A DNA stretch of 64,000 nucleotides from Trichobilharzia regenti. Taxonomy: Eukaryota; Platyhelminthes; Trematoda; Strigeidida; Schistosomatidae. Below the pieces are notes generated by a model. That model saw only the letters and a program-made list of their open reading frames with translations. It had not been told where the DNA came from and searched no databases. A program made the position numbers and the translations under genes. Positions 39,639 to 43,622 of the stretch are shown here, in pieces; within the stretch, counting starts at the first letter, position 1; each line of letters begins with the position of its first letter. The stretch spans positions 23,607,362-23,671,361 of the forward strand of contig OX235262.1 of NCBI GenBank assembly GCA_944472135.2, given 5' to 3'.

Positions 39639-40005
39639 TGTCAATGGAGTTGAAGATTGAACGATCAATTCTTGGTTGTTTGCTCAAAATCAACTTCCCC
39701 GATTTTCGCGGAGGCATCAATACGACAGTCATCGTCTCATCGGTCGCTGTTCAGAAAGAAGAGTAAAATATCGTCAGAAGTAACAATGATTTATTATTGT
39801 AATATTAGTTTTCAGACCTTAGTTTGCTTAGTTCGCTTATTCCTTTTATATGTTGGTGTAACAATACAGAAATATCAAACGGCAGATCGGTGTTTTGGTT
39901 TTTGCGTCCGTTATAACTAAGCGTTTCTGAGAAATCTTCTAAGAACAGCGTGGGCCCGAGTGTAGCGAGAGCTGGGCATTAACGGTTTATGAGACTTGGC
40001 TGACA
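39639..40005 (+). repeat. 5' LTR of gag-only element (367 bp)
   Basis: TG...CA ends; tttattattgtaatattag lies inside. Immediately 3' is gtttctgacgatagaaac, the expected primer-binding position, which I could not match to a tRNA 3' end. Confidence 0.95.
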
Positions 40006-40149
40006 GTTTCTGACGATAGAAACAGATCTGGCGGATTGAAACAGTTGGTGAAAGTTTGGATAGTCGCCGTTCATTTTTCCTGGTGCCGGTCAAGTCCTCT
40101 TTGAACAAGCAATATCTGGAACGTTTTTGGAATTGGGTCAAGTTCAACA

Positions 40150-42105
40150 ATGCCTGGGTCAAAGAAGGGACAGAGTGTCTTGGATGCAAACAGGAAAGTA
40201 AGTCATGGTGACTTGTCTGTTAATTGTAACGATGTGTCTGATGTTAAGCATGACATGGTTGATGTTACTGTTTCGCCGTTCAGGGATAATAGGAACATCA
40301 AACTCCCTAAATTTGAACCACGGTGTTTTGATGGAAACCCGGCTGATTATTTACAATTTGTAAAGGAGTTTGAGATCATGTTGAGTGGTTTTTTATTAAA
40401 TGATGAATTGAAGTTAATGTATTTGATGAGATATTGCACTGGAGATGCTGCAAGAGCTATACAGTGCTGTAAGTTTATGAAGCCAAAAGAGGGCTACTAC
40501 GAGGCTATGAGCATATTACGTCAAAGGTTTGGAAGACCTTCGATGATTGCAGGGAAATTATTCGAGGCTGTTAAGGGTAATGGTGGTCAATTACAGGATG
40601 ACTCCCAGGCACTCACTGAGTTTTTAGATAATTTGCTAATTTACAAGAATGGAATGATTTCGATGAATCGCACGAGTGACCTCAACTCGAGTTTTATACT
40701 AGAAGTAATAGCAAGACGTCTACCTACTCGACTGCAAAGGAAGTGGGTGAAGATAAGCTCCCGTATGGAGGATGAGGGTATCGAGCCAAAGTTTGATGAT
40801 ATCCTGAAACTGGTAAATACTAGTGTCAATCAATCTATGAGCAAGTTCGCCAGTCTATTACATCTCACCCCTAGAATAGAGCAGTCTGAGATCAAAATGC
40901 AATCATTGATGACGAGTAGGCCTCAGAGAGGTGGATATCGAGAAGGCTCCATGATGTCTAGTAATGCATATAGACCTAGTGAGTGTAACAGGTTTCGTAG
41001 TACATCCTCAACAGATAAGTTACAAGATGCAAGACAAACACGGTTGTGCTTTACACGTGTGCAAGAGGTGCATACAGAAGTGAACTGTGAACCAGTGAGC
41101 AAGTTCAGTGATAAGCTAAATGTAAACTCCAGGTCTGACTCCGAATTGTGTGACGATAACGGTGCGGTGAAGAAGTCTGTAGTTGCAACTGGTAAGCCGT
41201 TGTTGAATAAAGTGTCACAGAATAGAGTTGCTGCTTCAGAGTGCAGTTCTGACCCTACAAGTTTACAAGGTATTACTAGTCAGAGTGAAGATATAAAACC
41301 TTTTATGATTTGCGAGGAGGAACCAAAATTGTCTACTTCTGTTATTAAAGAGTTTGAAAATGATGAAGTTGACGGTAAAGTGAATATTCGTGATAATGAT
41401 CATGATACTTCACAGTTGTCTTTGGTTGATCATTATGAGATGAGGGATATGCCTACTACTGCTAAGTTAAATAAAGGTTCTGTACAACTACAACGTGAAG
41501 TAGAATTGAACGCAGATGCAGTTCCAGAAGGTGTGCATACTTGTGAGACAGTCAGTGTAATTGATCAGCGTGTAGCCCACCTATCATCAGATGATAGTGC
41601 TAAACCCGAACTAGTAGTGAAAGACAGCAGTGGTGGTAATCTTGCAGTTGGACAACTATCTGAGAGCCGAACAAGAACAGCTTCTGATCCACCACTAAGT
41701 TCATCACCTTGTGTCACTCAGTCATCGTTGGTGCTGTCATCCACAATGAAACAGACACCCATCAACTCAAGTATCTTGTGCAATGACTATGCTAGTATCA
41801 GTTCGTTTGAAAGGACGAATATCAATGGTCAGTTTAGTGTGGATAAGCCAAGTGTAAAGGAGAGAGTTATTGTTAAATTGACTTGCACGAATAAAGGCAT
41901 TTCTAGTTTCAAGTTACTATTTGAATGTTATTATCTTTGGTGTAAATTACTCTGTTTCTACACTTGGTTGATGAGATATGTCGTGTGTTTGTTGGTCATC
42001 TATATTCTACGATACAATGACATGGGCGTGTTGCCGTTCAGATTTGAGGATATAGCTGATAGAAGGAAGTTAGCAAATGAACTCTGCGACGATTTTCCAA
42101 CCTAG
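40150..42105 (+). CDS. Gag-like protein of non-autonomous BEL/Pao element, 651 aa
   Basis: The intact ORF starts 144 bp after the 5' LTR. Residues about 45-200 contain IKLPKFEPRCFDGNPADYLQ, FVKEFEIMLSG, LNDELKLMYLMRYCTGDAAR and GYYEAMSILRQRFG. This is the DUF1759-type capsid region characteristic of BEL/Pao gag (L-P-x-F-x-x-x-x-F-D-G-x-P-x-x-Y, then C-T-G-x-A, then L-x-x-x-F-G). At residues 300-313 CFTRVQEVHTEVNC has the spacing of a CCHC zinc knuckle but its second Cys is Arg (codon CGT; TGT would be Cys). Residues about 320-575 are Ser/Asp/Glu-rich and low-complexity. Residues about 578-622 are strongly hydrophobic and aromatic, ending CLLVIYILRY, a predicted membrane segment unusual for gag. 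A charged tail RFEDIADRRKLANELCDDF closes it. Other reading: a gag fused to an env-like remnant after pol loss. Confidence 0.8.
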   Translation: MPGSKKGQSVLDANRKVSHGDLSVNCNDVSDVKHDMVDVTVSPFRDNRNIKLPKFEPRCFDGNPADYLQFVKEFEIMLSGFLLNDELKLMYLMRYCTGDAARAIQCCKFMKPKEGYYEAMSILRQRFGRPSMIAGKLFEAVKGNGGQLQDDSQALTEFLDNLLIYKNGMISMNRTSDLNSSFILEVIARRLPTRLQRKWVKISSRMEDEGIEPKFDDILKLVNTSVNQSMSKFASLLHLTPRIEQSEIKMQSLMTSRPQRGGYREGSMMSSNAYRPSECNRFRSTSSTDKLQDARQTRLCFTRVQEVHTEVNCEPVSKFSDKLNVNSRSDSELCDDNGAVKKSVVATGKPLLNKVSQNRVAASECSSDPTSLQGITSQSEDIKPFMICEEEPKLSTSVIKEFENDEVDGKVNIRDNDHDTSQLSLVDHYEMRDMPTTAKLNKGSVQLQREVELNADAVPEGVHTCETVSVIDQRVAHLSSDDSAKPELVVKDSSGGNLAVGQLSESRTRTASDPPLSSSPCVTQSSLVLSSTMKQTPINSSILCNDYASISSFERTNINGQFSVDKPSVKERVIVKLTCTNKGISSFKLLFECYYLWCKLLCFYTWLMRYVVCLLVIYILRYNDMGVLPFRFEDIADRRKLANELCDDFPT

Positions 42106-42106
42106 G

Positions 42107-42560
42107 GCGTCAACCTGAGAAGGGTTGTAGGCGTACTGGTGTAAGTCCTACAGTTCTTCAAAGGGTAGCGCATCAATGAGCAGTCCAATGTGCTTGGTGT
42201 ATGATCTTGTACATATGTTCATATTGTATATACTGAATTGATATCATCTGTCATCTAGCTGTTGGTAATTCTGTTTGTGTCCGGACGACTTCCACTTGGA
42301 TCATCAACCTGAGAAGGAATGTAGGCGTACTGCTGTAAGTCCTACAGTTCTTCAAGGGTAGTTTGTCGTGTCAGAATCCACAACATTTGATGTGTTGATT
42401 GTACATATGTTTGTGTTAAATAGTTGTGTGAGTTCCAATTGATGTAATTGTTGGTTAATCTTGTTTGTGTCTGGACATTCCACAACTTACAATCGTCAAC
42501 TTGAGATGGGTTGTAGGCGTACTGGTGTAAGTCCTCCAATTCTTCAAAATAATTCCACCA
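42107..42560 (+). repeat. 193-bp-period tandem repeat with conserved hairpin
   Basis: Three units start at tcaacctgag (42,110), tcaacctgag (42,304) and tcaacttgag (42,496), about 193 bp apart. Each carries gtaggcgtact-(g/c)-gtgtaagtcct and each of the first two ends tgtttgtgtc(c/t)gga. The core can fold as GTAGG/CCTAC plus ACT/AGT with a 3-nt bulge and 6-nt loop. The third unit is partial, with a CCTCC mismatch. The array begins immediately after the stop codon. Confidence 0.85.
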
Positions 42561-43255
42561 AGACATGATCCGCGAGGTTATTTGTACTGTTTGTGTATAC
42601 GTGTGGTGTGTCTTCGCAATTTGTGATTTTGGATCAGTTGTGTTTACTCGTTGTTTTCGTGCCTTGTTTTTATTGCATAATTTTGTTAAAATTTTCGTCG
42701 TGATTACTTCCGAAGTTGTGTCCACTCTTCTACATCCGTGAATGAATTGATTGATGTTAAGGACAGCAGATGGGTCGTATACGCCGGGGAGGCTAGGCTA
42801 TTGCTGAGAATGAAATGCACACGGAGATAATTGTTAGCTGCGGTCCGACACGCCGGGGAGAAAGAGTGTAAACGACTGAGGCTCGCATGCGTCACCGCTA
42901 TTAGAACTGAGGCAGAATGAGTGACCAGCGATTTCAGTGGTAATTGGTAGTGAGTAGATACGAGGATGTGCGTAGAGTATCGTGAGGTGGTGCTATGGTC
43001 ACATTGCATTCTGCAAGAGTCATTCTAGCAAGCGGCGATTGTGTTGCAAGATGTCAAGAGGAGGTCTCTGTCTGGAGGCGCAGGTCGTCAGCGATGTGTG
43101 AGATTGTGCTGTGAGTATGCTTGTGGTGTGTTGGCTTTTCTGTTTGTTTTCCATTTCAGCTCTGTCCGTGTGACCCAGGTTCTCGCAATGGCATCCAAGT
43201 CGACGTGCATTGATCGTGAAGGAAAAAAGGGTTGGATCCCTTTTTTGCTGAGGAG
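42561..43255 (+). other. 3' non-coding part of the gag-only element
   Basis: No pol motif in any frame. gaaggaaaaaaggg at about 43,218-43,231 is a purine run placed about 25 bp before the 3' LTR and could be the polypurine tract. Short frames on both strands (for example minus 42,704-43,009) have no recognised family. Confidence 0.6.
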
Positions 43256-43622
43256 TGTCAATGGAGTTGAAGATTGAACGATCAATTCTTGGTTGTTTGC
43301 TCAAAATCAACTTCCCCGATTTTCGCGGAGGCATCAATACGACAGTCATCGTCTCATCGGTCGCTGTTCAGAAAGAAGAGTAAAATATCGTCAGAAGTAA
43401 CAATGATTTATTATTGTAATATTAGTTTTCAGACCTTAGTTTGCTTAGTTCGCTTATTCCTTTTATATGTTGGTGTAACAATACAGAAATATCAAACGGC
43501 AGATCGGTGTTTTGGTTTTTGCGTCCGTTATAACTAAGCGTTTCTGAGAAATCTTCTAAGAACAGCGTGGGCCCGAGTGTAGCGAGAGCTGGGCATTAAC
43601 GGTTTATGAGACTTGGCTGACA
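43256..43622 (+). repeat. 3' LTR of gag-only element (367 bp)
   Basis: Same length as the 5' LTR, with no difference seen by eye. The translated 87-codon frame at its start is the same in both copies. Confidence 0.95.

Follow-up and report, generated by a model that had tools for sequence, protein, structure and literature searches.

A gag-only BEL/Pao element of Trichobilharzia regenti and the autonomous family with which it shares its ends

We describe a gag-only long terminal repeat (LTR) retroelement at positions 39639–43622 of a 64,000-nucleotide stretch of the Trichobilharzia regenti genome (assembly GCA_944472135.2, contig OX235262.1, forward-strand positions 23,607,362–23,671,361), hereafter the window. 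The element carries a single open reading frame (ORF) with a capsid-type Gag domain, and both of its ends are common to an autonomous BEL/Pao family of the same genome. Judged from these sequences, it very probably represents an old, multi-copy, non-autonomous BEL/Pao satellite that is mobilised in trans and whose RNA is packaged alongside, and recombines with, that of its partner.

A recent insertion in a multi-copy family

The two LTRs (367 bp, TGTCA...TGACA; 39639–40005 and 43256–43622, both on the plus strand) match at 367 of 367 positions and are bordered by a perfect 5-bp target-site duplication (TSD; unstranded), AGTTG, which comparison of the flanks places at 39634–39638 and 43623–43627. 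Their TG..CA ends and the 5-bp duplication are those of a BEL/Pao LTR. When the flanks are joined with one TSD, an unbroken 606-codon minus-strand frame of a non-LTR retrotransposon spans the insertion point. The reverse transcriptase (RT) half of this interrupted ORF (38556–39633, minus) matches Pfam RVT_1 (E = 5.2e-27), and the upstream half (43628–44359, minus) has no Pfam match on its own. The restored frame shows a clean insertion and not LTRs duplicated in assembly. A preliminary description, made from the sequence alone, had reported the identical LTRs, the perfect duplication and a fresh insertion; all three hold, and the copy is a real, recent insertion. Within the window, blastn detected no further LTR or copy of the element beyond 39639–43622.

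Further copies were sought in the window's own assembly (954 Mb, 548 contigs) with the LTR as query; the best 40 of 2653 first-look candidates were scored, and the pair and copy counts given here are among these. LTR matches of 365–367 bases at 99–100% identity occur at at least 40 places, in addition to two fragments, and form at least 12 same-strand pairs, nine of them spaced 3612–3618 bp, two 3418 bp and one 8138 bp. In the ten pairs compared, the LTRs differ by 0, 3, 2, 0, 2, 1, 1, 1, 2 (plus 2 gap columns) and 4 mismatches, and the 5-bp TSD, checked in ten pairs, is identical in eight and has one mismatch in two. The 8.1-kb spacing belongs to a gag-only copy whose 3′ region holds a nested gypsy element; this copy and ten other pairs begin with a common leader and gag and end in a common 3′ region. 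The family is thus multi-copy, with 11 pairs spaced 3.4–3.6 kb, and the suspicion that the window copy might be a unique internal deletion is not upheld.

Thirty LTR loci were read into their interiors. Thirteen open into the leader and the gag-only ORF, another 12 lie at the end of the 3′ region, and L023 alone opens into an autonomous copy. Three (L009, L010 and L024) have no adjoining internal sequence and are flanked by perfect 5-bp repeats, like solo LTRs. Another, L007 (G000 C3:22151312–22154678), retains no more than the final 57 nt of the 3′ region, and the remainder of the 1.5 kb read inside it is unmatched; its outer flank and that of a pair 11 kb away at C3:22163742 agree at 99.7%, which points to local duplication.

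The ORF of the window copy comprises 651 codons (40150–42105, plus). The longest stop-to-stop frame in 40006–43255 has 666 codons, against no more than 223 in 200 base shuffles. A Pfam search placed DUF1759, the BEL/Pao gag profile, on aa 60–205 (40327–40764, plus; E = 6.1e-10), which answers the profile check suggested in the preliminary description, and when relation to autonomous BEL/Pao gag-pol was tested by BLASTP, P0037 aligned with aa 50–318 (E = 2e-25). The AlphaFold model is confident over about aa 54–233 only, with a predicted local distance difference test (pLDDT) score of 76–89 over aa 61–230 and a mean of 42.8 overall; the solved structures nearest to aa 54–233 appear to be capsids of retroelements or of their domesticated kin, though not decisively so. 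No protease, RT, RNase H or integrase domain was recognised in the ORF by Pfam up to E = 1, and the only other match in that range was one sub-threshold Corazonin hit. Because the polyprotein with these four enzymes is absent, the element can be filed only as a non-autonomous derivative of BEL/Pao.

Downstream of the capsid domain the protein departs from an ordinary Gag. The nucleocapsid region (aa 235–323; 40852–41118, plus) is eroded and its CCHC zinc knuckle is gone; the CCHC pattern, by which the triple Cys-His box is recognised, is absent from the window ORF and from 34 Trichobilharzia database hits that include partial sequences. There follows a private middle (aa 324–558; 41119–41823, plus), low in confidence and coil-like in the structure model, which had no match in Pfam or in the partner pieces tested. 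The tail (aa 560–635; 41827–42054, plus) derives from pol: 28 of its 76 residues are identical to the spacer that separates RNase H from integrase in the partner (E = 3e-10), a position judged by eye from motifs. The final 18 nt of the ORF (DDFPT and the stop; 42088–42105, plus) are common to the end of the partner pol, and here the 3′ shared block begins. Of the uninterrupted, enzyme-free 651-codon gag ORF described earlier, the intact frame, the gag profile and the missing enzymes all stood, but about 330 codons, those of the private middle and the pol-derived tail, are not gag.

All 13 gag-only 5′ parts are free of stops over 452 codons and 12 of them are free of indels; at the 3′ end, the last 115 codons are open in 12 of 14 copies. 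Across the 13 copies the ratio of nonsynonymous to synonymous divergence (dN/dS) is 0.19 for gag nt 1–705, 0.24 for nt 403–705 and 0.65 for the middle, and for the tail (14 copies) it is 0.54–0.60. The capsid part of the ORF is under purifying selection. With two LTRs, a single GAG ORF and no pol enzymes, the element has the composition of a terminal-repeat retrotransposon with a GAG domain (TR-GAG), to which the private middle and the pol scrap are added; with an intact ORF whose capsid part is selected, it falls outside terminal-repeat retrotransposons in miniature (TRIMs) and large retrotransposon derivatives (LARDs), which have no coding capacity.

The partner family and mosaic copies

Autonomous BEL/Pao elements were sought in the same genome with the profile PF05380, and the best 150 of 1546 candidates were scored. 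Open frames around these 150 matches reach 1806 codons. Five autonomous copies (A–E) were opened at both ends. The gag-only LTR has no similarity to copies A, C and D beyond chance matches of 9–12 bases, and it aligns over its full length with the LTRs of copies B (90%) and E (86%). The leader (40006–40149, plus) matches that of copy B at 98% (144 nt) and that of copy E at 94% (109 of 144 nt); gag nt 1–704 are 88–89% and the 3′ region 89–91% identical to those of B and E, whose pol ends, as the gag-only ORF does, in DDFPT. A third partner copy (L023, L072, L073) has LTRs 98.6–99.2% identical to those of the window. LTR, leader and the region of the polypurine tract (PPT) are therefore held in common with one autonomous family, represented by B and E of the five copies. 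That family includes open-frame copies in the assembly; it has the protease, RT, RNase H and integrase that the window element lacks, and it retains zinc knuckles at the position where the gag-only protein has lost them. A helper of the schistosome Saci-1 type had been presumed: a BEL/Pao partner with shared ends is indeed present, but it is a specific family of the same genome and not just a generic element of that type.

The 5′ block common to the partner (39639–40549, plus) takes in the LTR, the leader and roughly the first 400 nt of gag. Counted per 50 bases against copy E, identity is 48–50 at gag nt 1–250, 46 at nt 251–300, 36–49 from there to nt 700 and 26–35 to nt 1000, beyond which there is none; over gag nt 301–705 the gag-only and autonomous families differ by 16–19%. 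Synonymous divergence (dS) between the window copy and E, B and L023 rises from 0.09–0.15 in gag nt 1–300 to 0.61–0.67 in nt 301–705. Within the gag-only group, dS amounts to 0.048 in nt 1–300, 0.153 in nt 301–402 and 0.043 in nt 403–705, and since the first and last of these values are alike, the 5′ similarity to the partner is not due to synonymous constraint. Near-fixed differences between the gag-only (n = 13) and autonomous copies give the same boundary: one in the 367 sites of the LTR, none in the 144 of the leader, and within gag none in nt 1–300, 13 in nt 301–500 and 31 in nt 501–705. The comparison of 1/811 in the 5′ block with 44/405 in the next sites yields p = 6e-21, although the sites are not independent. 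At the other end, identity to three partner copies jumps from 50–62% to 94–100% at ORF nt 1939, and from there through the 3′ non-coding region B and L023 are about as close to the window copy as gag-only copies are to each other, with E somewhat lower.

Twenty-three autonomous copies were entered for comparison with the gag-only group, and two with little or nothing alignable (L076 and L079) were dropped, leaving 21 for the tests of diagnostic sites and of strictly fixed differences. At 62 diagnostic sites, two autonomous copies are chimeric. In L086 the first 33 sites, which reach gag nt 543, are of gag-only type, the next 13 vary and the last 16 are of autonomous type, and L084 is of gag-only type at its first 8 sites and of autonomous type thereafter, except at 3. 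A patchy pattern marks L078, L083 and L093, which may represent side lines of greater age and not recent recombination. The remaining 16 copies are of autonomous type, with 0–3 exceptions each. In the stretch read, L086, L084, L078 and L083 have no stop and share the frame of their own polymerase match, and as far as that stretch extends they retain the partner's knuckle region. L023 combines an autonomous body with an LTR that is 99.5% identical to the best gag-only copy and at a median of 90.6% to other autonomous copies. Because of the mosaic copies, strictly fixed differences begin late: there are 15 in all, the first near gag nt 590. Mosaics of this kind are expected if both RNAs share particles and RT switches between templates.

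Two side observations concern BEL/Pao elements in this genome more generally. None of the best 150 of 1546 RT-region matches contains an internal stop, and the fluke genome seems to carry many young BEL/Pao elements. In addition, polymerase matches recur at steps of about 5.9 kb (G000 C2:87738623, 87744506 and 87750395; C1:63175678, 63181579 and 63187445), in what look like tandem arrays of elements sharing LTRs.

Age of the gag-only line and competing explanations

Relatives of the ORF were sought among 5.8 billion proteins at E ≤ 0.01, with candidates restricted to 0.55–1.75 times the query length, so that full gag-pol proteins were excluded. Thirty-five clusters matched: 31 from T. regenti, one (P0034) from Trichobilharzia, two from T. 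szidati and one from Schistosoma japonicum. The first 32 clusters hold 132 sequences and the T. szidati clusters 10; members may be database duplicates, and these numbers are not locus counts. Within the length limits, none of the 35 clusters has a precomputed protease, RT, RNase H or integrase domain.

The T. szidati protein P0012 (663 aa) aligns with the window ORF over its full length at 62%, with 133 of 200 residues identical in the capsid core, 137 of 230 in the private middle and 70 of 91 in the tail. It also matches the partner's pol spacer at the same place as the window tail does (47.7% over 65 aa, E = 5.8e-11). When the window ORF was evolved neutrally to 64% identity, 0 of 1000 simulations remained free of stops, a comparison qualified by the fact that annotated proteins are pre-selected for open frames. 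In a Gag tree built from aa 135 onward (189 columns), the gag-only sequences (four from T. regenti, one from T. szidati) separate from the partner and outgroups with support of 100; the stretch takes in the eroded knuckle region, which may add to this grouping, the partner entered is that of the window's own genome, and identities over the stretch differ little, at 0.597 between window and T. szidati and 0.548 between window and partner. S. japonicum P0035 is placed with support of only 56. With the private middle, the pol scrap and the Gag grouping all shared, the gag-only line seems older than the species split; barring horizontal transfer, it probably predates the separation of T. regenti and T. 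szidati. The window copy is young though its line looks old.

Two of the database proteins differ from the rest. P0035 (785 aa, named Pol polyprotein) resembles the gag-only protein at its start and end and keeps two zinc knuckles; it shows no enzyme domain and may represent a parallel gag-only line in Schistosoma. P0034 (547 aa), as annotated, joins a section of the gag-only ORF to a PAP2 phosphatase domain, either a gene-model fusion or a chimeric transcript.

These results lead us to propose that an autonomous gag-pol element of the same-genome family lost its four enzymes (protease, RT, RNase H and integrase) and kept a capsid-type Gag together with a remnant of pol that stayed in frame. 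The gag-only RNA would enter particles alongside partner RNA; the partner would contribute protease, RT, integrase and the zinc-knuckle nucleocapsid, and the gag-only line its own capsid protein. The shared ends would then stem from template switching during reverse transcription. Mobilisation in trans, as the preliminary description supposed, gains a concrete partner with shared ends and recombinants, and it is from these that we infer the step itself. A further proposal, advanced tentatively and with rather less than even confidence, is that the two together form a stable two-part animal retroelement, in which one RNA encodes a capsid without nucleocapsid, the other encodes capsid, nucleocapsid and enzymes, and particles are mixed; the ends would form one pool through continual template switching, and the capsid genes would have stayed separate since before the T. 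regenti/T. szidati split.

Several points weigh against the proposal of a co-packaged satellite. Ends could also be exchanged by gene conversion among integrated copies. Resemblance to the window LTR was what brought in the 13 gag-only copies, a sampling biased to young copies with window-type LTRs that underestimates LTR diversity within the group, and most of the 21 autonomous copies are taken from the head of a single profile list. The dN/dS values derive from 78 pairs among 13 copies, and pairs are not independent. Two copies carry stops in the tail (L030 one, L031 two), and L007 may imply a further internal variant of the family. Finally, the primer-binding site (PBS) in the leader is a candidate only, the window containing no tRNA with which to compare it.

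The nearest alternatives keep the family and dispute the purpose of its protein. If only the ends matter, the element is a pure parasite and its ORF a passenger kept open by recombination with the partner. The common ends fit this, as does the weak constraint on middle and tail (dN/dS 0.54–0.65), but gag nt 403–705 seem not to be refreshed by the partner, with 31 near-fixed differences in nt 501–705, and yet have a dN/dS of 0.24, and an ORF of 651–663 aa has been kept in two species where none of the neutral simulations stayed open. We regard this explanation as unlikely. Equally improbable, in our estimation, is interference, in which a Gag without knuckles would poison or limit partner particles and be selected as a brake on copy number. 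The conserved capsid domain and the lack of a CCHC knuckle in all 34 Trichobilharzia hits, some partial, speak for it; poisoning the sole source of enzymes would, however, cut the element's own spread, and the young copies attest to recent movement.

Two further explanations are less likely still. One or more copies might serve the worm as a domesticated Gag, as Arc or PNMA2 do elsewhere, but several young copies flanked by LTRs and TSDs mark a mobile family and not a fixed host gene, and we give this very little credence. That the window copy is a unique internal deletion or an assembly artefact is refuted by at least 12 pairs at separate places, with their own TSDs in the ten checked, and by database relatives in two Trichobilharzia species; its probability is next to nil.

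Non-coding features and relation to known systems

In the leader, TGG triplets at 40029, 40046 and 40057 are candidate starts of the PBS, of which we annotate the one at 40029. A short purine run adjoining the 3′ LTR, GAGGAG at 43250–43255 (plus), is the candidate PPT and reads GGGGAG in the three partner copies read. The 3′ non-coding region (42106–43255, plus), common to the partner, contains three copies of a 55-nt hairpin motif on the plus strand, 85–93% alike and separated by linkers that are 43–60% alike. The copies at 42110–42164 (z = −2.1) and 42304–42358 (z = −2.9) fold better than shuffles, and that at 42496–42550 does not (z = −0.5). The motifs are present in the partner too, where B and L023 have two, the missing copy aligning with the second; that they act in packaging or export is a guess. 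A stable hairpin (AAAAAAGGG...CCCTTTTTT; 43215–43262, z = −2.3) lies directly before the 3′ LTR. Beyond the interrupted non-LTR element, the window contains a gypsy-type element (44481–48109, minus), a relative of which, 89.7% identical, is nested in gag-only copy L031.

Mobile elements that keep gag and lose much of the remainder have precedents. The mouse endogenous retrovirus IAP I-delta-1 (intracisternal A-particle) is mobile and internally deleted, with a gag-pol fusion ORF. A precedent among plant gag-only LTR elements, invoked in the preliminary description, is borne out by the passages available, and the closest is RLG_Quinta with its autonomous partner RLG_Cereba in wheat (PMC11302176). 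As described there, RLG_Quinta is non-autonomous, encodes GAG with a domain of unknown function, and shares LTR ends and PBS with its partner; its gag has diverged, template switching has been proposed, and the line predates species splits (PMC11302176). These are centromere-specific plant elements (PMC11302176), whereas ours is a BEL/Pao element in an animal, with lost knuckles, a tail from the RNase H–integrase spacer and the 5′ end of gag within the exchanged block. RLG_Sabrina and RLG_WHAM of wheat are likewise described as semi-autonomous, GAG-encoding and dependent on an autonomous partner, but they are plant Gypsy elements whose homology to the proposed partner is down to a few motifs (PMC9744471), where the fluke element shares both ends at length. 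Plant TR-GAG elements have two LTRs and one GAG ORF, and transposition in ddm1 is described for a copy from Arabidopsis with a GAG of 562 aa; it belongs to Copia, and the passages mention neither knuckle loss nor a pol scrap (PMC8704663).

Among flatworms, ta-TRIM and lennie of taeniids are, in the passages seen, non-autonomous LTR families with a candidate autonomous partner, and as TRIMs they encode no protein (PMC4558846), unlike the fluke element. Sinbad and Saci-1 of Schistosoma mansoni are blood-fluke BEL/Pao LTR elements (Sinbad LTR 386 bp) that differ, in the text available, in having gag and pol with a triple Cys-His box (PMC554778). CM-gag of Culex is, according to the title of its description, a repeated animal element with a gag gene only. 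The open-licence literature entries listed, so far as their titles and abstract openings go, name no gag-only BEL/Pao element and no gag-only element in a fluke, nor do the available parts of PMC3118150, PMC8293314, PMC13155389, PMC3286476 and PMC3087523.

That the zinc knuckles are lost while the capsid domain is conserved hints at a division of labour inside one particle. Since the assembly also contains the partner and natural mosaics of the two, the persistence of a satellite can be tested by sequence, as can whether satellites give or only take, and how recognition by a partner is kept while the satellite's own protein diverges. Partnerships of gag-only and autonomous elements are, on the passages cited, already known in plants; what differs here is the animal host, the BEL/Pao superfamily, the loss of the knuckles, the pol scrap and mosaics that reach into gag.

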